33,855 nt of DNA. It comes from Sulfurimonas sp. Lineage in GTDB: Bacteria > Campylobacterota > Campylobacteria > Campylobacterales > Sulfurimonadaceae. Positions 9,002-33,855 of this stretch are shown piece by piece. Position numbers and translations under genes: made by a program. The notes beneath the pieces are model-generated. The model was not told the origin of the DNA. It saw nothing but the letters and a program-made list of their open reading frames with translations, and did not search any database. Where the stretch lies: positions 1 to 33,855 of the forward strand of contig JALWTK010000202.1 of NCBI GenBank assembly GCA_027082875.1, read 5' to 3'. Every line of letters starts with the position of its first letter. Positions within the stretch are counted from its first letter, which is position 1.

Positions 9002-11626
9002 ATGTCAGAGAACAGATACAATCCACAAGAAACAGAAAACAAATACTATAAAATATGGGAAGAACGTAAGTACTTCGAGATAGATGGTAACAAAGCTATT
9101 CAAGAAGAGGGAAAAAACTTCTCGATCATGATGCCACCACCAAATGTTACAGGACGTCTGCACATCGGTCATGCACTTACATTTACACTTCAAGATATCA
9201 TCACTCGTTACAAACGTATGGATGGTTATAAAACTCTCTGGCAGCCAGGAACAGACCATGCAGGTATCGCTACACAAAATGTCGTAGAGAAACAACTCCT
9301 AGCAGAAGGCACAACAAAAGAGGAGCTTGGTCGCGAGAAGTTCTTAGAACGTGCTTGGGCTTGGAAAGCTGAGTCTGCTGGGATTATGACTGAGCAACTT
9401 CGTGTTCTTGGGGTAACTCCTGCATGGGAACGTGAGCGTTTTACTATGGATGCAGGTCTACAGAAGTCTGTAAAAGAGGCGTTTGTAAAACTCTATGATG
9501 ATGGACTTATCGTTCGTGGAAACTACATGGTAAATTGGTGTACACATGATGGAGCACTCTCTGACATAGAAGTAGAACACGAAGACCACGACGGTAAATT
9601 TTACTATATGACTTACCCTTTTGCTGATGGAAGTGGAAGTGTTGAAGTCGCAACAACAAGACCTGAGACATACTTCGGTGATACGGCTGTTATGGTGCAC
9701 CCTGATGATGAACGCTACAAAGCTATACTCGGAAAAGAGATAAAACTTCCACTTCTTGAGAGAACAGTTAAAATCATAGCTGATGAGCATGTTGATATGG
9801 ATTTTGGAACAGGTGTCGTAAAAGTAACACCTGCACATGATCAAAATGACTACGAGGTTGGTAAACGCCACGACCTAGAGTTTATCACAGTCTTTGATGA
9901 GAAGGGAATCCTTAACGACTATGCTGGAGAGTTCAAAGGTTTAGAGCGCATCGAAGCTCGTGATATCATCGTGAAACGCCTTGATGAAGAGGGATATATC
10001 GTTAAGATAGAAGACCATAAGCACCAAGTAGGACACTGTTACAGATGTAAAAACATCGTAGAGCCTTATATCTCAAGACAGTGGTTTGTGAAAAAAGAAG
10101 TAGCTGATAAGTCTATAGAGAAGACAAATGAGGGTGAAGCTCAGTTCTTCCCTCCTCACTGGATTAACTCTTATAACTCTTGGATGGGTGAACTTCGTGA
10201 CTGGTGTATCTCTCGTCAGTTATGGTGGGGACATCAAATCCCAGTATTTTACTGTGATGATTGTGGACATGAGTATGCTACTGAAGATGAGCATCCAGAA
10301 TCTTGCCCTAAGTGTTCTAGTAAAAACCTAACACAAGACCCTGATGTTCTTGATACATGGTTCTCTTCTGCTCTGTGGCCTTTCTCAACTCTTGGTTGGG
10401 CAAATGGCGAAGAGGGGAAAGGTGCACTTTGGAATGAGTCTGACATGAAAGACTTCTATCCAAATACTCTGCTTATAACAGGTTTTGATATCCTCTTCTT
10501 TTGGGTAGCTAGAATGATGATGATGGGTGAGAACTTTAACGGAAAACTTCCATTTAATCATATCTACCTTCATGCCCTTGTACGTGATGCAAACGGTGAT
10601 AAGATGAGTAAGTCAAAAGGAAATGTTGTAGATCCTCTCGATACAGTTGAGAAGTACTCTGCGGACATCCTGCGTTTTACTCTTGCTATCTCAGCGGCTC
10701 AAGGTCGTGACATCAGAATGAGTGATGAGAAGTTAGAGTTAAATCGTAACTTCACAAACAAACTTTACAATGCGACAAAATACCTACAGATGAATGTAGA
10801 TGTTTTCCCTGATATGAATGGTTTTTGTGTAGAGACTGATCTCGGTCGTTACATGATGAGCCGTCTAAACTTTGCAACCAAAGAGGTACGTGCAAACCTT
10901 GATGAGTATAAGTTTAACGATGCAGCTCTTGTACTTTATAAGTTTCTATGGAATGAGTTTTGTGGTTGGGGTATCGAACTTTCTAAGGCTGACAAAGCAT
11001 CTATAGTTGAACTTGGAGCAATTTTTAAAGAAGCTATGAAACTCCTCCACCCATTTATGCCATTTATCACAGAGCATCTTTACCATGAGCTTAGTGGTAC
11101 TACACTTGAAGAGGGTGAATCTATCATGCTTATGCGTTACCCAAGCAAGACGAAACAACGTAAAGAGGAAGAGACTTTTGAAGTTATCATGGATGCTATT
11201 GTTTCTATCAGACGTGCAAAAGTTCTTGTAGACTTAGCGAACCAGAAGATAGAAAAAGCCTTCGTAAAAATAGACGGACTAAGTGAAAAATCCAAAGAGA
11301 TGATGAAACCTTTCATCATAAAACTTGCAAAAGTAGAAGTGCTTGAGTTTACAGAGTCTAAGGTAGAAAATGCCGTAAGTGATATCTCAGATAAGTGTGA
11401 GACTTTCATCCCAACTGATAGTATAGACCTTACTCCTATCATCACAAAGCTTGAACGCCAAGATGAAAAACTTCAAAAAGAGATAGGTAAACTAAACGGT
11501 ATGCTTAATAATGAGCGTTTCGTAGCAAATGCTCCAGAAGATGTACTAGAGAAAAACCGTACACAGCTTGCAGATGCTACTGCTAAACGCGAGAAGGTTT
11601 TAGAGCAACTTAGTTCTTTAAAGTAA
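9002..11626 (+). CDS. valS: Valyl-tRNA synthetase
   Basis: Class I aminoacyl-tRNA synthetase that charges tRNA-Val, 874 aa, the normal bacterial length. Catalytic HIGH in PPPNVTGRLHIGHAL near residue 50; the editing (CP1) domain contains VATTRPETYFGDTAVMVHP and the conserved DQNDYEVGKRH; KMSKS begins at residue 534 (GDKMSKSKGNVVDPLD). A zinc-ribbon-like insert is visible (CDDCGHEYATEDEHPESCPKCSSKN). The C-terminal coiled-coil arm is present (KLERQDEKLQKEIGKLNGML ... LEKNRTQLADATAKREKVLEQL), a valS trait. The ATG start has AGGCGA upstream. Cytoplasmic and essential; no unusual neighbours that would suggest transfer. Confidence 0.98.
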   Translation: MSENRYNPQETENKYYKIWEERKYFEIDGNKAIQEEGKNFSIMMPPPNVTGRLHIGHALTFTLQDIITRYKRMDGYKTLWQPGTDHAGIATQNVVEKQLLAEGTTKEELGREKFLERAWAWKAESAGIMTEQLRVLGVTPAWERERFTMDAGLQKSVKEAFVKLYDDGLIVRGNYMVNWCTHDGALSDIEVEHEDHDGKFYYMTYPFADGSGSVEVATTRPETYFGDTAVMVHPDDERYKAILGKEIKLPLLERTVKIIADEHVDMDFGTGVVKVTPAHDQNDYEVGKRHDLEFITVFDEKGILNDYAGEFKGLERIEARDIIVKRLDEEGYIVKIEDHKHQVGHCYRCKNIVEPYISRQWFVKKEVADKSIEKTNEGEAQFFPPHWINSYNSWMGELRDWCISRQLWWGHQIPVFYCDDCGHEYATEDEHPESCPKCSSKNLTQDPDVLDTWFSSALWPFSTLGWANGEEGKGALWNESDMKDFYPNTLLITGFDILFFWVARMMMMGENFNGKLPFNHIYLHALVRDANGDKMSKSKGNVVDPLDTVEKYSADILRFTLAISAAQGRDIRMSDEKLELNRNFTNKLYNATKYLQMNVDVFPDMNGFCVETDLGRYMMSRLNFATKEVRANLDEYKFNDAALVLYKFLWNEFCGWGIELSKADKASIVELGAIFKEAMKLLHPFMPFITEHLYHELSGTTLEEGESIMLMRYPSKTKQRKEEETFEVIMDAIVSIRRAKVLVDLANQKIEKAFVKIDGLSEKSKEMMKPFIIKLAKVEVLEFTESKVENAVSDISDKCETFIPTDSIDLTPIITKLERQDEKLQKEIGKLNGMLNNERFVANAPEDVLEKNRTQLADATAKREKVLEQLSSLK

Positions 11627-22487: not shown

Positions 22488-25400
22488 TTACCAATCATCA
22501 AGAACGAAACCTTTTGGCTCTTCCTCGACCTCTTTTATCTCTATATCTTCATTTATCTCAGGCTCTTGCACTTTTGTGACCTCAGGTCTGCTCATCTGCT
22601 CTTCAAACTTCAACTCGAGACCCTTACTTGTCATCACAAAGCCATTGACTTGAAGTTTTCCCTCATGTATGAGCTTGTGATGCTCTTTACACAAAGGTAT
22701 AAGGTTGTGCTTATTGTCTTTATGAAAATGCCCGATAAATCCAGCTTCATCTGCTAAACTACGTTGAGAGATATGATGCACATCCTCAGCAATAGCACCA
22801 CAGATGATACACTTCGTAACATAAAGCTCTTTGTTATACTTACTCGTTTTTTTCTTCACTAAAAGTTCTAACTCATCAAAGTCATTTGATAAACGCTTAC
22901 GGATGGCATTTGCCTCTTCTAAAAACTCACTATCCATGTGTAGAGACTTTGCAAACTCAAGTCCATAGATACTACTACCACTTCCAGCTTGAAGTACACG
23001 GTTAAAGACTAAGGTATCTTTTTCTTCATCATACTCTACACTAAGATGTAGGTCTACGACATTATCAAGTGTAGTTATCTCTTGCATCGTTGAGAGCTGG
23101 TGCAAGTGTGTCGCAAAGAGGAAAAGACAACGAGTATTTGCAAGTTTTTTGATAGCTGATGCAACTATAGCAACACCTGAGAGTGTCTCTGTTCCATGGC
23201 TTATCTCATCCCCTAAAACTAGAGAACGAGTAGTTGCACGGTTAAAGATGTTTTTGAGTTCAAGCATCTCTACAGCAAAAGTAGAGAGCCCTTTTGCAAG
23301 GTTGTCTTTAGAGACTATGCGAGTAAAAAGCGAATCAAAAATACTAAACTTCATCACAGCAGCACTCACAAAAAATCCAGACTGTGCCATAAGAGTAGCA
23401 ATCCCTATACTCTTCATAAGAGAGGATTTTCCACTTGAGTTTATCCCATAAAGAAGCACACCGTTGATATCATGTCCATCATGAACACCCACTTCAAGCA
23501 TAACTGTTTCAGGATGAGGCAAGTCCATATACTCACGATTTCCCATCACTATGTCATTTGGTACATAGAGTCCACCTCTCTCTTGTACCTCTATGAGAGG
23601 GTGTCGAAGTTGCATGATCTGCATAAAGTTCTCATTCTCTTTCACCTCAACGATTGTAGGGCGAGAGTGCTTGTATGTTTGAGCTACTTTTGAGGAGCTT
23701 ACCCCTACATCAAGATCAGAGACATAGGCTATAACTCTGTCAAAAAGAAGGGAGTATCTGCGTTCATAAAGTGTTTGAAGGTTTATGTACTTCTCTTTAA
23801 CAAGAGTCACTATCTTTCGACGGTTTTTCATGATCTTATCTGAGAGTTCATCAGTAAATGTAGAGGTAATTTTCACAGAGTTTGTCAATTTTTTGACATT
23901 GTAACTAAGAAAAAACTCCTCTTGTTTAAACGCACTCTCTATGAGAGAGTAGCGGTTTTTTGAAAGAGAGATATAGTAACCCTCTTTCTCTAAAAGTCCA
24001 AGTGTAACAAGTCGGTTAGAGCTTCCGGCGTTTACAGACTCTAGTAAACCTTCTATTCGTTTCATGATGTCCTTAAATGCCACCAACATCACACTATTTT
24101 CTTTGACAAGTGTATCTATAGATTCATCTACACCACTCATCAAAAAGTTCTCATCTACTGTGTTGTTTGTAAAACGACGAGAGACATCAAGATCTATGCT
24201 TTTGCTTATATCACGAAGAAACTCTTCAACTTCACTCTCATGAAAAGGTGTCTTTTGGATTTTGTGTTTTTTGACATAGAGCATTAACTCTTTAACTGCG
24301 AGCATTGAGTCATAAACATGATTCATCTCAAAAGGATGAAGTCGACCTAAGTTAAGTCGGCGTGAGAGTCGCTCTAAGTCATAAACACCACGCATCATCT
24401 CATCGAGATAACGAACATGCGAAGAGACTCGCTCTATAAGGTTATAACGGCGATTAAGCTCCACCTCTTCCATAATAGGGTTAAGCAGACGCTCTTTAAG
24501 CAGACGCCGACCGATGGCAGTAGCACTACGGTCTAACATCTTAAGGAGTGTAAACTCTCTTCTATCTTTAGAGATGATGCCCATCTGCTCTAAGGCATTG
24601 TTTCCAAGGTACATAAAACGGCGATTATCTATCAAACGCGGCATAGACATCTTCTGTACTATGTGGTAGTCATGCTCGATGACAAAGTGAATAAGTATCG
24701 CGAGCGATTCTGTTATCATAGGAGAGCGTTCTAAGTCAAGATGCTCTATAGGCGAGAGCAAAGACTGTATCTGATAGACCTCCCCAAAGAGTCTGTTTTG
24801 AAACTCTATCCTTGGTCTTTGGTTATTCACTGCATAGTGGTAGTGTTCTGGTATCTCTAAGTACTGCATCACATGGCGTTGGTCATCTATGCCATCTAAG
24901 AAAGTAACAACTATCTCACTTGTTCTATAGACATTCAGGAGATTAAAAACCTCATCAAGGGCATAAGAGGGGTCTTCACTTGTGGAGTGTGTCTCATACA
25001 TCCAAGTCTTTCCAGTGGTGACATCTATGGCAGAGTAACCCACACTATAAATCCCACGGTACTTATCTATGGCAAGAGAGACTATATAGTTATCATCATT
25101 ATCTACAATATGCTCAAAGTTTGTTCCAGGGGAGACAATTTGAGCTATATAACGGCTTATTTTTGGAGGATTACCCTTTTGTTTCACAACTATAACCGTG
25201 TACTTCTGCTCTTGTATAAGTCTGTTTAGATAGCGTTCAAAGGAGACAGCAGGAACACCTGCTAAAAGTGGGTTTCTATCAGAATTTTCTATGATATTTT
25301 TGTTTTTCTTTGTAAGCTGGATGTTGAGGAGTTCGGCTATCTCTTTAGCCTTCCCTATCTGCTCCTCATCGTTGTTGACCTCATAGACCTCATAAAAAGT

Positions 25401-25529
25401 ACCTATCTCCATAAAGACAACAGTATCGCTTCCATACTTCTCTTCAAAGTGGCGTTGTAGATCAAAATAGGTCTGGGTGAGCAGTCGCTCTTTGTTATTG
25501 AGCATATTGCTTACATCGGAGATTTTCAT
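22488..25529 (-). CDS. mutS: MutS7-type mismatch repair protein with C-terminal HNH nuclease
   Basis: MutS homologue of 1013 aa. N-terminal mismatch-recognition domain with the Phe-x-Glu motif ([11 protein letters not shown], near residue 43). Long core/lever/clamp region. ATPase: Walker [14 protein letters not shown] (about 695), Walker [15 protein letters not shown], and [11 protein letters not shown]. After the ATPase comes an HNH nuclease (about residues 905-955): CIICG, DVHHIS, and [17 protein letters not shown]. This mismatch-recognition plus HNH architecture is the MutS7 subfamily, known from Campylobacterota and octocoral mitochondria; it is thought to nick DNA without a separate MutL. 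AGAGG precedes ATG, three bases after the J-domain gene stop. Its stop forms the ribosome-binding site of the next gene. Confidence 0.95.
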
Positions 25530-26441: not shown

Positions 26442-27266
26442 TTAAACTAATCTAAATTCAGCTATTTTTTCTTCATAAGTTTTTATATCTTGTTTTCGTT
26501 TATGTTTTAAAGCACCTTTTAGTAGGAGTGTATACTTTTTAAGAAGTTCTTTTTCTATAAGTTCTCTCTTTTCCGGGATAAGATTTTCTTCATCCCTCAA
26601 AAGATTTTCAAGAGTAATTATGCGAAATCTATCCATGCCCCAATGCTTAAAACTGAGTTGATCTGCATGCCCTGCATATTTTTTGATGAGTTTTTTATCT
26701 ACTAATGCTATTGTACTTTTCAAACTTATTCGTAGCCAGAGGTCATAGTCTTCACACACTTCTAAAGCCTCATCAAACATACCTATAGACTTAAAAAGAT
26801 TTTTATGGATGAGTGATGATGAAGGGGCTATATTGCAATAGGAAAGATTTTCTGCAAAGGCATCTTTACCTATTTTTTTAAATTTTTTAGGAATCTTTAC
26901 ATTCATTCCATCTCTTATCCAAGTTTCATCTGTATAACTCATCAGTATAGTGCTATCTTCTTGATGAAATACCACTTGTTCTTCTAGTTTTGTAGGTAGC
27001 CACTCATCATCAGAGTCTAAAAAAGCAATCCATTCTGAACTTGTACTCTTTATACCTCTATTTCTTGCAGAAGAAACACCACTATTTTCTTGATATATAT
27101 ATATTACAGAGGGGAAATCACTTTGAATATCTCTAGTATTATCTGTTGAGCCATCATCAACAACTATGATTTCGATGGGTTTGTAAGTTTGAGAGAGTAC
27201 AGAATTTATCGCTCGAGAAAGAAGTGCATAACGGTTGTAAGTAGGAATAACAACCGTTATTTGCAT
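26442..27266 (-). CDS. GT2 family glycosyltransferase
   Basis: GT-A fold glycosyltransferase of 274 aa. The N-terminal nucleotide-sugar domain shows MQITVVIPTYNRYALLSRAINSVLSQTYKPIEIIVVDDGSTDNT, SGVSSARNRGI, and the DxD-type metal motif in WIAFLDSDDEWLPTKLEEQ. A later YCNIAPSSSLIHKNLF ... EVCEDYDLWLRIS is the usual acceptor/catalytic region, with the ED pair. No transmembrane helix, so it is cytoplasmic. It starts 11 bases after the mqnE stop with no clear Shine-Dalgarno, so it probably shares that transcript. It could build a surface glycan or the oligosaccharide used by the nearby pglB; the donor sugar is unknown. Confidence 0.93.
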   Translation of the reverse strand: MQITVVIPTYNRYALLSRAINSVLSQTYKPIEIIVVDDGSTDNTRDIQSDFPSVIYIYQENSGVSSARNRGIKSTSSEWIAFLDSDDEWLPTKLEEQVVFHQEDSTILMSYTDETWIRDGMNVKIPKKFKKIGKDAFAENLSYCNIAPSSSLIHKNLFKSIGMFDEALEVCEDYDLWLRISLKSTIALVDKKLIKKYAGHADQLSFKHWGMDRFRIITLENLLRDEENLIPEKRELIEKELLKKYTLLLKGALKHKRKQDIKTYEEKIAEFRLV

Positions 27267-27277
27267 TGTAGCATTTA

Positions 27278-28312
27278 CTACCAGACTTTTATCTCATTGT
27301 AAAGACTATCACGTTCTACTGGTACAAAACCACTATTTTTTATAAGTTCTGTAAATTCTACAACATCCACACCATTTGCACTCTTCGCACCTGCTGCTGA
27401 GTTGATAGACTCTTTTTCTATTGTGCCATCAAGATCATTTGCCCCAAACTCTTGAGCTACTAAAGCGAGGTTCACAGTAGATGTTACCCAGTAGGCTTTG
27501 AGATTTGGTACATTATCTAGGACTAAACGCGAGACTGCCATAGTTTTTAGTATCTCATTTGCTGTTATAGGGGCTTCTATATTTAGATAGTTATTTTCTG
27601 TTTGGTAGACAAGAGGGATGAAGCAGTTAAACCCACCTGTTATATCTTGAAGCTCACGTATACGCATCATATGGTCAATACGATTCTCACGAGACTCTAC
27701 ATGTCCAAAAAGCATAGTAACATTAGACTTCTTCCCGCGTTCATGCCATTTTCTATGTATTTCAAACCACTGATCAGAAGTTACTTTTCCTTTACAAATG
27801 TAGTCACGAACCTTCTCATCGAAAATCTCAGCACCACCACCAGGCATAGAGTCCACACCATTTTCTACCATCAGATCAAGTACTTCATCATAAGTAAGTC
27901 CATGGTGGCGAGAGAGAAAGTCTACTTCTGCAGCTGTTAAGGCTTTTACATGTAGATGAGGATACTGCTCTTTTATCTTTTTAAATATCCCTAAATACCA
28001 ATCAAGTGTTACTTCCGGGTTGTGTGCGGAGACTATATGCACCTCTTTAGCACCTCTTGCATCTATCTCTTTGACAGTTTTGAGTATATCTTCATGACTC
28101 ATAGTATACTGGTTAGGATTTTTCCGAGTTGCAGAGTAGGCACAAAACTTACAAACATCTGCACAGACATTTGTTGGGTTGATGTGGCGGTTGACATTAA
28201 AATAGGTCTTTTTTCCATGAAGTTCTTGGCGTGCAGTATCTGCAAGTGATCCTAAGTCAAAAAAATCCATATCATAGAGTTTTAGTGCATCTTCAAAGTT
28301 TATTCTATTCAT
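27278..28312 (-). CDS. mqnE: Aminofutalosine synthase (radical SAM)
   Basis: Radical SAM enzyme of the futalosine menaquinone pathway; it joins SAM to the chorismate-derived enolpyruvyl benzoate to give aminofutalosine. 344 aa. The cluster motif CADVCKFC (C50, C54, C57) sits in NRHINPTNVCADVCKFCAYSATRKNPNQYTMS. Family features: VHIVSAHNPEVTLDWYL, GGGAEIFDEKVRDYIC, GFNCFIPLVYQTENN, and AQEFGANDLDGTIEKESINSAAG. The NRHINPTN start and this C-terminal box favour MqnE over the related MqnC. A TATAAT box lies 26 bases upstream and only a weak AAAGA precedes the ATG. No other mqn genes are in the window, as is common in Campylobacterota, where the pathway is scattered. Confidence 0.93.
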   Translation of the reverse strand: MNRINFEDALKLYDMDFFDLGSLADTARQELHGKKTYFNVNRHINPTNVCADVCKFCAYSATRKNPNQYTMSHEDILKTVKEIDARGAKEVHIVSAHNPEVTLDWYLGIFKKIKEQYPHLHVKALTAAEVDFLSRHHGLTYDEVLDLMVENGVDSMPGGGAEIFDEKVRDYICKGKVTSDQWFEIHRKWHERGKKSNVTMLFGHVESRENRIDHMMRIRELQDITGGFNCFIPLVYQTENNYLNIEAPITANEILKTMAVSRLVLDNVPNLKAYWVTSTVNLALVAQEFGANDLDGTIEKESINSAAGAKSANGVDVVEFTELIKNSGFVPVERDSLYNEIKVW

Positions 28313-28337
28313 TTTTTAATCTTTACTATTTTTTCGA

Positions 28338-28343
28338 ATTATA
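28338..28343 (-). promoter_or_regulatory. -10 box of mqnE
   Basis: TAGCTATAATTCG on the minus strand in the 32-base gap between the pglB stop and the mqnE ATG. Confidence 0.5.
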
Positions 28344-28344
28344 G

Positions 28345-30513
28345 CTAAATTTTCAGCTTATAAATTTTTACATTTGGATTTAATTCCACCGCTTCAAAGA
28401 GTTTCGAATCTGCTTTTTCTAAGACCATTAACTGAATGTACAGAGAATTATACATTGCATCATCAAGAATTAAAAATGTATTATAATTAGACATATAGAT
28501 AATATTAAGATTTCCGGTGATATTGAGTAACTTTTCATCCACATGCAATTTCATATGCTTATCATAAGCTGTTTTTACAAATCTTTTGAGAGGTACATGC
28601 TGATGTCCTATTATCACATTACCCGTTTTTTTATCTAAGTAGAGTCCACGACCAAAGTTTATCTTATCACCCATATCTTTAAAGTTACGGCTTACAAAGA
28701 AGAAAGGTTTTGCACCCTGTTTGCCACTCATAAGATTTATATTTGAAAATAGATCAACAGTTGGTAAAATATTTATCATCTTAAATGGTAAGTAGAAATA
28801 GATATCTCTTGTTTTTTTAGGTAACTTTATATCTGTTTGTAGTGAAAGTAAAAAGTCATTAGTATCCTTAAAACCATATTCTGTTGTCATCTGCTCTATC
28901 GTGGAAAAAATAGTAAGGTTTTTATCTTCTATAAGTTTTTTATTAGCATCCACAAAGGCAAAAATTTTTTCTGTCTGCTCGACATCTAGTCTAGCCATTT
29001 TTGCCGCTACATCTTGAGGTTTTGTAAGGATATAACTCAAAGGAAAGTTCACAGATCCACTATGCTTACCACCATCGGCAAGGGTTTTCACATCTGCATA
29101 ATAACGAATAGGATAACCATAATCCCACCAACCGATTACATAATCTTCTCTAGTAGCAATATGTTTCAGCGTATCTAGTGTTTTTACCTCATTTGCTGAA
29201 AAAACTGTAGGCACCTTATAGGCTACTATATGTTTATAGTTCGGATAGAGTATCGCCAGTGTAAAAACAAGCATACTGAGTACTTTAAGTTTAGAGGTTG
29301 GCATAAGGGAAGCAAGTTCAGTGATAAGAAACGCAATACCAAATGCTAAGATAGGCACGGCATAGATAGTAAAACGCAGACCACCTACACTTGCTAAAAA
29401 TCCTAATCCTACTAAAGGAAGTGCTAAGAGCATTATCTTATGTCTATAGGAGAGATAAGCATACCCAGTAAGTGAAATAACGAAAGTAATAGGGCTTCCA
29501 CTAATACGGTTTGCAAATGTCTCAAAAGGGATATGCCCAGCTTCACGGATAGTCTGCATAACTGTGAAGAAGTGAAGCTTTAAGCCTTCCTCTCCAACAC
29601 TAATAACATCTTTAAATACATATCCTTTTAACTTTACCCAGATAGGTGTAAATCCACCAGTCACAAAATACATCAAAAGACCAAGTGCTAAAACATGGTA
29701 AACATACTGCTGCATACTCTCTTTTTTGAGTGTTACATAAGCAATAAAAACAATAACTAACCTAACATATTCAGGAAGCCCCATCATTGCAAAAAGCATC
29801 ATGGCTAAAAGTTTGTAGTTATATTTATTCTCCCTATCAAAAAGAAGAGTATAAAAAAGAATCAAGCCAAAGAAAGATGTTTCTAGTGCATAAGATTGTG
29901 GATACCACCATCTATAAACAAGTATATCTAAGGCTGTAAGGAGTAGATAGATATCTTGCTTGGTACGAATCGCCCAGATGATAGACCAGAGAAGGAACAT
30001 AGGAAGTACTATGTTAAGCATATCTGTGTCAAAGTATCCTGCCATAGTACGATTATAGTAACTCCAAGCTATAGAAGCTAAAAGAGCAGCTATAAGTCCC
30101 ATCTCTAAGTTTTTAAGAGACTTTGCTATAAGGATAATAGGCACAACAACTAAAGAGCTTAAAAAAACAGGCATATAAAAGATAACAGACTCAAAAGAAA
30201 ATGGCAGTATATAGGCAAAAAATGCTGTTAACTCTGCAGCTGCTGTAGCTACAGGAGAGAGATCATGTAGCTGATGAAAACGATCAAAAAAATCTTTCGC
30301 ATCTGGATTTGTCGTAGTTCCAGAGAGCAGATCTCTCGCCCCCTCAGCCCAAAAATAACCATCATTTGTATTTATCATAAATTGACCATGAAAGATAAAT
30401 GGCTCATATCCATAAAACTGATAGACCCAAATGAGTCGCATAAGTACGGAGAATGAAAAGGCTACAAGTATATAAAGGAGTGTTGTTTTTGTTTCTTTAG
30501 AGAGTTTTGACAA
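28345..30513 (-). CDS. pglB: PglB/STT3-type oligosaccharyltransferase
   Basis: Membrane enzyme that moves a lipid-linked oligosaccharide onto Asn in N-glycosylation sequons, on the periplasmic face. 722 aa, close to Campylobacter PglB. The N-terminal ~430 residues form about 13 transmembrane helices; the first periplasmic loop is present and a D-x-D metal motif appears in YFDTDML (D162, D164). The catalytic signature WWDYG is at residues 462-466 (GWWDYGYPIRYYADVKTLADGGKHSG). The C-terminal periplasmic domain follows. TTG start with AGGAA seven bases upstream. The gene has its own extended -10 promoter. No other pgl sugar-synthesis genes are adjacent apart from one GT2 enzyme beyond mqnE. Confidence 0.95.
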   Translation of the reverse strand: MSKLSKETKTTLLYILVAFSFSVLMRLIWVYQFYGYEPFIFHGQFMINTNDGYFWAEGARDLLSGTTTNPDAKDFFDRFHQLHDLSPVATAAAELTAFFAYILPFSFESVIFYMPVFLSSLVVVPIILIAKSLKNLEMGLIAALLASIAWSYYNRTMAGYFDTDMLNIVLPMFLLWSIIWAIRTKQDIYLLLTALDILVYRWWYPQSYALETSFFGLILFYTLLFDRENKYNYKLLAMMLFAMMGLPEYVRLVIVFIAYVTLKKESMQQYVYHVLALGLLMYFVTGGFTPIWVKLKGYVFKDVISVGEEGLKLHFFTVMQTIREAGHIPFETFANRISGSPITFVISLTGYAYLSYRHKIMLLALPLVGLGFLASVGGLRFTIYAVPILAFGIAFLITELASLMPTSKLKVLSMLVFTLAILYPNYKHIVAYKVPTVFSANEVKTLDTLKHIATREDYVIGWWDYGYPIRYYADVKTLADGGKHSGSVNFPLSYILTKPQDVAAKMARLDVEQTEKIFAFVDANKKLIEDKNLTIFSTIEQMTTEYGFKDTNDFLLSLQTDIKLPKKTRDIYFYLPFKMINILPTVDLFSNINLMSGKQGAKPFFFVSRNFKDMGDKINFGRGLYLDKKTGNVIIGHQHVPLKRFVKTAYDKHMKLHVDEKLLNITGNLNIIYMSNYNTFLILDDAMYNSLYIQLMVLEKADSKLFEAVELNPNVKIYKLKI

Positions 30514-31377: not shown

Positions 31378-32949
31378 TTATATACCAGGTGCAGACCACA
31401 TACTAGAAGTCACACCTCTATCTACAAGTTCAAGTTGTACTTTATATGCCTCTTGCCACTGCTTTTTTATCTCTTGATACTTTTTATGATTTGCCATTGA
31501 AGGCATATACTCTTTTTCCCACACTACAAGTTCTTTTGCAGCACTCTCTATGCTCTTATAAATGCCACACCCTACCCCAGCAGCCATAGCACCACCTAGT
31601 GCTGTTGCTTCTGTGACCTTTGGAATTTTCACTTTCTTTCCTGTAACATCTGCAAGTATTTGTGACCAAAGGGCACCCTTACTCGCTCCCCCTGCAAAAA
31701 CTATCTCTTCTATCTTTATGCCTGAAAATTTCTCTATGTTTTCCAGATTGATGCTTGAGACTATGGCAGCATTCTCTTCTAAACTTCTAAACATACTTAT
31801 ATGGTTATACTTCTCACTATCTAGTCCAAGATTTAAAAAGCTCGGTGCTGCATGGTACCACTTCGAGTATTTCATAGAGTCGGAAAATATTGGGAGTATT
31901 CCGTAAGAGCCTACTGGCACTTCACTCGCTTTCTCTTCTAGGAGTGAATAAACATCTATCTCGCGTTTATCAGCCTCTCTCTTTTCCAAAGCACAAAAAG
32001 CATCCCGAAACCATCGCATCACTAAACCACTAAAGAAGGTAATCCCCTCTGCTTGCGAGAGATTCGGAATAACATGAGGGTTTACACGGATGTTTCTATC
32101 TTCTGGAGGAGGTGTCTCTTTTGGGATATTTACGACCTGTTGCCAAAAGCTCCCACCCAGAACTGCCACATCACCTGTTTTTACTACACCAAGACCAGCG
32201 GAACCTAGTTGGACATCACCACCACCAATGACTACAACTGTTTTCATGCTCAGCCCTGTCTCGCTCACAACAGACTCTCCTACCTTGCCTGTAGGAGTCC
32301 CAACTTCTAAAACTTGAGGAAAGATATCATCTTTAAGCCCTACTTCATGAGCCATCCTGCTCACCCAGTCGCGTTTATTGAGAGAAAATATCCCCGTAGT
32401 TCCAGCATTACTAGGATCAGTCGCAATAATTTCCGATAGCTTCGCTAAAATCCAATCCCCTATCATAGAAATAGTTGCCACTCTTTCATATATCTCAGGT
32501 TTATTGTTCTTCAACCAAAGTAAACGAGGTAGTGCTCCAAGTGCAAAAGTCTGTCCAGATTCAACATAGCACTTCTCTTCAAGCCCCTCAAAATACTCTT
32601 TTAGATACTTCACCTCATCACTCGCTCTAGCATCTACATTTGCCACTGCCCAGAGTTCTTTACCTTGTGCATCATAAAGTATAATCCCTTCACGCATACT
32701 CGTAGCACTTAGAGCCAGAATATCATCTGTATCTATACCAGCAAGTTCGATAGACTCTCTAATACATGCACAAACTAATCCCCAATTTTTCTCAAAATCA
32801 AAGCTCATAGAGTTTGCTACACCCTCTTCTTCTAAGTGTGTCCACTCTTTTTGTGCTACACTTATTTGATTGCCTTTTGTATCAAAAATCACTGCACGGA
32901 TACTTCCTGTTCCTGCGTCTATTGCCATTAGGTATTTTTTTGTATTCAT
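31378..32949 (-). CDS. lsrK: FGGY-family carbohydrate kinase, LsrK-like
   Basis: FGGY kinase of ~523 aa closely resembling autoinducer-2 kinase LsrK along its whole length: YLMAIDAGTGSIRAVIFD, SATSMREGIILYD, WAVANVDARASDEV, DPSNAGTTGIF, VVIGGGDVQLGSAGLGVV, NIRVNPHVIPN, MRWFRDAFCALEKREA, GILPIFSDSMKYSKWYHAAPSFLNL, FAGGASKGALWSQILADVTGKKVKIP, ending TSSMWSAPGI. LsrK phosphorylates the AI-2 precursor DPD. The track start is 32961; I prefer the second ATG (32949), preceded by GGAA, since the first has no Shine-Dalgarno. Upstream lies a class II aldolase; none of lsrACDBFGR is seen in the window, so the real substrate may be a related ketose. An exported ligase gene follows after one base. Confidence 0.88.
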   Translation of the reverse strand: MNTKKYLMAIDAGTGSIRAVIFDTKGNQISVAQKEWTHLEEEGVANSMSFDFEKNWGLVCACIRESIELAGIDTDDILALSATSMREGIILYDAQGKELWAVANVDARASDEVKYLKEYFEGLEEKCYVESGQTFALGALPRLLWLKNNKPEIYERVATISMIGDWILAKLSEIIATDPSNAGTTGIFSLNKRDWVSRMAHEVGLKDDIFPQVLEVGTPTGKVGESVVSETGLSMKTVVVIGGGDVQLGSAGLGVVKTGDVAVLGGSFWQQVVNIPKETPPPEDRNIRVNPHVIPNLSQAEGITFFSGLVMRWFRDAFCALEKREADKREIDVYSLLEEKASEVPVGSYGILPIFSDSMKYSKWYHAAPSFLNLGLDSEKYNHISMFRSLEENAAIVSSINLENIEKFSGIKIEEIVFAGGASKGALWSQILADVTGKKVKIPKVTEATALGGAMAAGVGCGIYKSIESAAKELVVWEKEYMPSMANHKKYQEIKKQWQEAYKVQLELVDRGVTSSMWSAPGI

Positions 32950-33000
32950 TCTGTATTCCATTTATTTATATGTATTAAGGGTATGTCGAAAAAGTAATCG

Positions 33001-33023
33001 GAATAAAAGCCTTTAGAGAGGCT
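33001..33023 (-). terminator. Candidate terminator after the aldolase gene
   Basis: Minus strand AGCCT-CTCTAA-AGGCT followed by TTTATT: five pairs and a T-rich tail, in the 132-base gap between aldolase and kinase. It could end or attenuate aldolase transcription. The remaining gap holds an AT-rich ACATATAAAT that could be a -10 box for the kinase, but this is weak. Confidence 0.4.
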
Positions 33024-33094
33024 CAGACCGGAGGGAGGATTTGTCTTCTTTAAAGGTTTTTATGGAGATGGATTGATGTTACATAGCCTTCAAG

Positions 33095-33855
33095 CTATTT
33101 CTTAAGTTTAGCCTGTTCGAGTTCCCAGTACTCCATCGCAAAACTATCTGCTAAACTTATACTCTCATATCCACCTAACTTGTCAGCACGTAAAACTGCT
33201 TTCATAGTATGATCTACTATATCATTTATAACCGCTGCTTCTTTGGGTGTCTCACCAAAACTAATCACAGCAAGATTTTTAATGACCATGTAATTAGGTG
33301 CCGCATTTACCATCACCTCATCTCTTGCAAACTCTTTGAAGTATGCTTCATACTCTTCCATATACCGCTTCACACCACCTTCGAGATCAGTATCTTCCAT
33401 GATAAGAGGTACTCTCTTTGTGCGGATGATATGCTCAGGAGTTAAAACACCACGAGTTGCGAACTCTCTTAGGTTCTCTTGTGAAGCGTAGTAATTAGCC
33501 AAAGGTGTTTGGTTAATATTTATAGAGATAGGATAGCCCTTTGCAGCAGAGAGTACTTTTACTATTCTCTGCATATCACACTCGCTCGGTTCAAACTTTT
33601 GTGCTACATGAAGTGTTGCATTTTGTTCTAAAAACACTTCCGCTTGCATAACGGCATCGATCATCTTGTCATAAGATTCTCTTGCATCATCATCAAAAGT
33701 GAAGATACCATGGTTGTGAAGAATAATCCCATCAATAGTAGACCAATCAAGCTCTTTCGTCATCTCATAAATAGTATGAGCAAGCTCAAAACCAGGCATC
33801 ACATAATCAACAATCAAAAAGTTAGGAAAAACTTTTTCAATATCTCTCTTGCCAT
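33095..33855 (-). CDS. Class II aldolase, RhaD/bifunctional-aldolase type (5' truncated)
   Basis: C-terminal ~250 residues of a class II (zinc) aldolase. The track calls a TTG start at 33817, but the frame is open to the window edge (GKRDIEKVFPNFLIVDYVMPGFELA), so the gene is cut. Visible: DGIILHNHGIFTF with candidate zinc histidines, then a helical region and the end SLADSFAMEYWELEQAKLKK. That ending matches the linker that, in bifunctional rhamnulose-phosphate aldolase/dehydrogenase proteins, leads into a short-chain dehydrogenase; here a stop follows, so this is the stand-alone aldolase form. The adjacent LsrK-like kinase suggests a kinase-aldolase pair cleaving a phosphorylated ketose. 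Substrate is inference. Confidence 0.85.
   Translation of the reverse strand, partial: GKRDIEKVFPNFLIVDYVMPGFELAHTIYEMTKELDWSTIDGIILHNHGIFTFDDDARESYDKMIDAVMQAEVFLEQNATLHVAQKFEPSECDMQRIVKVLSAAKGYPISININQTPLANYYASQENLREFATRGVLTPEHIIRTKRVPLIMEDTDLEGGVKRYMEEYEAYFKEFARDEVMVNAAPNYMVIKNLAVISFGETPKEAAVINDIVDHTMKAVLRADKLGGYESISLADSFAMEYWELEQAKLKK

Follow-up and report, generated by a model that had tools for sequence, protein, structure and literature searches.

Does a kinase gene of apparent LsrK type that sits beside a class II aldolase gene, with no other lsr genes in view, mark a route of autoinducer-2 (AI-2) degradation, or does it belong to the salvage of a related sugar? In the enteric route, LsrK yields P-DPD, LsrG isomerizes it, and LsrF moves the acetyl group to CoA and frees DHAP (PMC8016206). 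Whether AI-2 is a signal or a waste product of the methyl cycle is a long-standing question, and it has been called open for the bacteria considered here (PMC2628731). The locus lies at one end of a 33,855-base stretch of Sulfurimonas sp. DNA, which is a whole contig (C202) and is called the window below. A sequence-only reading of the window had suggested either AI-2 degradation with a different aldolase or salvage of a related (deoxy)ketose.

Reconstruction of the operon across the contig edge

The window stops inside the aldolase gene, and the genome from which it comes is assembled into 204 contigs totaling 2.34 Mb, with a completeness of ~93%. Using the intact 391-amino acid aldolase of a relative and its 95-amino acid upstream neighbor as queries, we searched this genome and found a second contig, C161. 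Window positions 33729-33855 are identical to positions 1-127 of C161, an exact overlap of 127 bases. Adjoining contigs of one assembly graph often share exact overlaps. The overlap thus indicates that the two contigs are adjacent in the genome and that the split runs through the aldolase gene. When the sequence is read across the overlap, it produces one unbroken 391-amino acid aldolase with an ABM gene before it, which sets the gene order of the operon here as ABM, class II aldolase, LsrK. The features are as follows.

31378 to 32961, minus strand: predicted LsrK-type autoinducer-2 kinase, 527 amino acids, intact (NCBIfam PRK10939; E. coli LsrK in the PDB)
32962 to 33094, minus strand: gap of 133 bases between the aldolase stop and the kinase start (sequence and consensus scan)
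33095 to 33855, minus strand (ORF 33095-33853, stop at 33095): class II aldolase, C-terminal 252 of 391 residues (bifunctional aldolase/SDR profiles)
C161, 3 to 542: remainder of the aldolase gene (search with a relative's protein, and the 127-base overlap)
C161, 549 to 833: 95-amino acid ABM gene of predicted LsrG fold (search with the relative's upstream neighbor)

Three bases separate the end of the ABM gene from the start of the aldolase gene, and a consensus scan of the 133-base gap between aldolase and kinase revealed no promoter- or terminator-like site. The earlier description of a class II aldolase preceding the kinase is borne out in that the gene lies upstream on the same strand and stops at the interdomain linker, but the window ORF itself holds only the C-terminal part of the protein. 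That reading had also allowed for a full lsr operon directly outside the window. We examined C161, which past the ABM gene carries GlnD-like and then GlmS-like genes (named from their relatives), and a full lsr operon just past the contig edge is thereby ruled out.

Downstream of the operon, window positions 26442-30513 (minus strand) encode a glycosyltransferase, the radical SAM protein MqnE and a PglB-like oligosaccharyltransferase, a set of neighbors that many Sulfurimonas also carry downstream of their kinase. A 1013-amino acid MutS-type protein encoded at 22488-25529 (minus strand) scores below the NCBIfam MutS cut-offs, and its C terminus (residues 907-959) has a weak match to HNH endonuclease, just under the Pfam cut-off.

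The kinase groups with LsrK

Against NCBIfam PRK10939, the autoinducer-2 kinase family, the kinase scores 861.3 bits over its full length, where the curated equivalog cut-off is 528; its next NCBIfam family is xylulokinase, at 195 bits. Likewise, a search of the PDB returned E. coli LsrK at 629.6 bits followed by glycerol kinase at 106, and the identity to E. coli LsrK is 55% over the full length. Six residues of the LsrK site have been named (PMC8028047), and all six (Thr21, Ser23, Phe312, Arg322, Phe325 and Thr456 in E. coli LsrK numbering) are kept in the window kinase. In a tree that includes E. coli LsrK, XylB, GlpK, AraB, RhaB and FucK, the window kinase joins LsrK with a fork value of 93/96; because the outgroup branches of this tree are very long, the profile scores carry more weight. 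Among named relatives, those closest to the window kinase belong to Sulfurimonas. As had been noticed from the sequence, the intact protein resembles LsrK as far as the C-terminal SxWxAPG motif, ending SSMWSAPGI. Placement among the xylulo- or ribulokinases, which had been raised as a contrary outcome, is ruled out by the NCBIfam scores and the FGGY tree. These comparisons indicate that the window kinase is of the LsrK type, and it would be expected to phosphorylate DPD. In one other genome (G195) the kinase is split over three matches, which may reflect gene decay or an assembly error.

The aldolase is a stand-alone form with an intact metal site

The 391-amino acid aldolase resembles the bifunctional aldolase/SDR enzymes of the PRK08324 / RhaD families in that it matches their aldolase half end to end (460 bits, profile positions 1-410 of 583) and has an intact metal site. 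It differs from them in its score, which is below the cut-offs of these families, in its placement in separate clades, and in having no dehydrogenase domain. The protein ends YWELEQAKLKK at the linker (about 400-410), where the aldolase/SDR profiles pass into the dehydrogenase; the stop codon falls at this linker, and the profile search found no SDR domain after the aldolase part. Residues E111, H125, H127 and H187 align with E73, H92, H94 and H155 of FucA, its metal ligands and catalytic Glu. These three FucA-type histidines and the catalytic Glu are invariant in 31 relatives, and they are present in the joined aldolase of the window's own genome. The predicted model of the aldolase is confident (pLDDT 91.9) and matches class II aldolases, the best of them 3m4r, a solved structure of the N-terminal aldolase domain from a Thermoplasma protein. 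The structure search gave no separate match for the C-terminal 175 residues, its best matches being class II aldolases of ~200 residues.

In a tree of the aldolases, the bifunctional forms make up a single clade, flanked on both sides by stand-alone forms; the luxS-linked stand-alone forms are all on one side, and LsrK accompanies every group. A decayed or truncated bifunctional enzyme is ruled out, since the form of ~391 amino acids with its own stop is conserved in 44 of the 107 genomes from the genus as well as in other families, and since the stand-alone clades are apart from the bifunctional one. Two aldolase/SDR proteins (L149:7643-9736 and L133:12038-13909) carry an additional insert, partly repetitive, that follows the class II aldolase domain at around residue 225-260. 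Genome G125 has a split aldolase beside a bifunctional copy, possibly through gene decay or an assembly error.

The upstream ABM protein has a predicted LsrG-like fold

The sole NCBIfam match of the ABM protein is LsrG, at 25.7 bits against a cut-off of 135, a score obtained with the ABM protein of a relative (L032) that is 87% identical to the one in the window's own genome. The predicted model resembles LsrG, the P-DPD isomerase, with a TM score of 0.91 to 3qmq, and the two proteins have Glu and His positions in common, whereas their sequence identity (E. coli LsrG) is only ~24%. Other ABM proteins of unknown function outrank LsrG slightly in the structure search, and ArqI ranks under it. 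The modeled ABM protein thus appears LsrG-like in fold rather than an LsrG by profile, its score lying below the equivalog threshold. Some genomes outside the genus have two ABM paralogues, one beside the kinase and one beside the aldolase, in convergent orientation (L044:10856-11143 and 11198-11494).

Conservation, linkage to luxS and co-occurrence

The order ABM, aldolase, LsrK is found in most of the named Sulfurimonas relatives and also in Sulfurovum, Sulfurospirillum and Arcobacteraceae. Of 387 genomes sampled across the phylum, 60 have the kinase, and they fall into eight families, all in one order. In further genera of the window's family (g5, g7, g8 and g14) the arrangement is LsrK> <ABM <aldolase luxS>, with aldolase and luxS running divergently from a shared intergenic region. 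Twenty-three of the genomes compared have lsrK and luxS on one contig; 1.6-2.8 kb separate the two genes in 22 of these, and 8.1 kb in the remaining genome. In the genus of the window itself, luxS is not beside the operon but at another place on the chromosome. The window's own genome does carry luxS, as do 184 of the 200 genomes sampled from the family. The gene is also kept in 15 of the 19 genus genomes that have no kinase, and DPD can therefore be tolerated or exported without the kinase.

When 107 genomes sampled from the genus are compared, an aldolase of the PRK08324/RhaD-type family accompanies the kinase in 86 of 88 cases and is found in 2 of the 19 genomes without it (Fisher p about 1e-15, with genomes counted rather than independent events and shared ancestry uncorrected). 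Three of the four exceptions are genomes less than 83% complete. The genus aldolases comprise 44 stand-alone and 40 bifunctional forms, with four unclassified and no genome with both. LsrK is found in 39 of the 40 genomes with the bifunctional form, and mtnA accompanies 33 of these 40 forms versus 1 of the 44 stand-alone ones. Two complete genomes have the order ABM, LsrK, metK, mtnK, mtnA, aldolase/SDR. In a few relatives, a sensor gene whose product has a c-di-GMP-type output domain lies within the operon or adjoins it, which may be a signaling link or a chance insertion: a NIT-PAS-HD sensor at L149:5174-7489 and at L133:9698-12016, and a dCache-GGDEF-EAL protein at L105:4649-6829.

Search for other lsr and mtn genes

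E. coli LsrF and LsrB each found no match in the window's own ~93% complete genome. In the 200 family genomes, LsrF gave weak partial matches in 8 (best 34.5 bits) and LsrB gave weak matches in 8 (best 23.8 bits); LsrB alone stood for the importer in the genome-wide search. E. coli LsrR had no match among the neighboring ORFs, to which that search was confined. The genes mtnK and mtnA had no match in the window's own genome at the same completeness. The earlier statement that LsrG, LsrF and a transporter are missing thus holds genome-wide for LsrF and LsrB as queried, but the LsrG-like gene on C161 confines the absence of LsrG to the window.

Compared with the lsr operon of E. coli and Salmonella (lsrK, lsrR, lsrACDBFG), the Sulfurimonas system shares an LsrK kinase, an LsrG-fold protein and DHAP as the expected product. 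It differs in that LsrB and LsrF are not detected in the genome, the operon includes a class II aldolase, no E. coli LsrR match was seen among the neighboring ORFs, and luxS is adjacent in Sulfurimonas relatives while it is not adjacent in E. coli. Judged by its genes, the system probably works like lsr catabolism yet is not a canonical lsr operon, given that LsrB and LsrF were not found and the ABM protein scores below the LsrG threshold.

A proposed importer-free route of DPD disposal

We propose that the ABM-aldolase-LsrK operon disposes of the DPD/AI-2 made in the cytosol by the cell's own LuxS and recovers its carbon, with no importer and with a metal-dependent aldolase in place of LsrF; we put the probability of this reading at about 0.6. 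AI-2 degradation with a different aldolase, one of the two possibilities raised from the sequence, is supported by the identity of the kinase, the LsrG-fold neighbor, luxS in the genome, the proximity of luxS to these genes in relatives, and the failure to detect LsrF. Counting against the proposed route are the low LsrG score of the ABM protein, the position of luxS away from the operon in the window's own genus, and the presence of luxS in most genus genomes that have no kinase. In this route LsrK would phosphorylate DPD to P-DPD, and the ABM protein would isomerize P-DPD to 3-hydroxy-5-phosphooxypentane-2,4-dione (P-HPD, or its hydrate P-TPO). If LsrF is missing, some other enzyme must break the C-C bond, and the aldolase is the operon's only candidate for that role; it would cut the same bond as LsrF does in enteric bacteria, giving DHAP and a two-carbon piece.

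When its carbons are numbered as in a ketose, P-HPD is a 4-oxo-5-deoxypentulose 1-phosphate and stands one oxidation step above 5-deoxyribulose 1-phosphate. We know of no enzyme of this aldolase family with P-HPD as a substrate. The class II aldolase DrdA converts 5-deoxyribulose 1-phosphate to DHAP and acetaldehyde (PMC6079011), and for LsrF a route has been proposed in which an aldolase reaction yields acetate and DHAP (PMC2728841). The two-carbon piece could arise in two ways. Cleavage of a hydrated 4-keto group, as in P-TPO, would yield DHAP and acetate with no CoA. Alternatively, the ketone could be reduced first, a step that the SDR domain could catalyze in the bifunctional form, and the products would then be DHAP and acetaldehyde. 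The sequence does not decide between the two; we slightly prefer the hydrolytic route for the window operon because stand-alone aldolases, which have no SDR domain, are common. More tentative, and in our estimate somewhat doubtful, is the specific proposal that a metal-dependent class II aldolase splits the hydrated beta-diketone P-HPD hydrolytically, with no need for CoA, into DHAP and acetate and takes the place of LsrF in a closed, importer-free recycling of the LuxS by-product across Campylobacterales.

Alternative explanations

The other possibility raised from the sequence, (deoxy)ketose salvage, would have the kinase phosphorylate a 5-deoxypentulose (e.g., from 5'-deoxyadenosine or methylthioadenosine) and the aldolase split the 1-phosphate into DHAP and an aldehyde, with no AI-2 involved. 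Class II aldolases do cleave 5-deoxyribulose 1-phosphate (PMC6079011), and in many Sulfurimonas the gene for the bifunctional aldolase/SDR relative is accompanied by mtnK and mtnA. The operon also resembles the DHAP shunt, or 5-deoxyribose salvage (MtnK or DrdK, MtnA or DrdI, and a class II aldolase), in combining a kinase and a class II aldolase with DHAP as the probable product. It differs in having an LsrK-type FGGY kinase rather than a pentulokinase, and an ABM protein instead of MtnA. The near absence of mtnA from genomes with the stand-alone form and the adjacency of luxS in relatives likewise disfavor salvage, and we consider it unlikely; for the window's own genome, a role of the aldolase in the DHAP shunt is ruled out by the lack of any mtnK or mtnA match in the ~93% complete assembly.

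P-DPD induces lsr in E. coli, and P-DPD made by LsrK could correspondingly be an intracellular signal for an unknown regulator, with the ABM protein and the aldolase serving only to switch it off. The c-di-GMP enzymes with sensor domains found inside the operon of a few relatives are consistent with such a role, but they occur in few genomes and their domains differ, the importer LsrB was not found in the genome, and no neighboring ORF matches E. coli LsrR. We regard signaling as quite improbable and infer that the purpose of the operon is disposal. General detoxification of dicarbonyls (glyoxal, methylglyoxal), in which the ABM protein would play the part of Pseudomonas ArqI, would draw on the ABM fold that this protein has in common with ArqI/PA0709 (PMC12274486). 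ArqI nevertheless falls below LsrG in the structure search. To our knowledge, no role in glyoxal removal is known for an LsrK-type kinase, and we consider this explanation highly improbable.

Implications for AI-2 in Sulfurimonas

The literature that we searched, which covered few subscription papers, contained no mention of LsrK or autoinducer-2 kinase together with Sulfurimonas; novelty is not thereby proven. If the proposed pathway is right, its aldolase step would be a new reaction. A pathway built around an AI-2 kinase, in which neither importer nor LsrF could be detected and which lies beside luxS in relatives, points to the recycling of self-made DPD, and the operon offers a concrete, testable case of signal versus waste in free-living chemolithotrophs. 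These findings suggest that sulfur-oxidizing bacteria of the Sulfurimonas group recycle the by-product of their own LuxS, rather than importing it as a signal.
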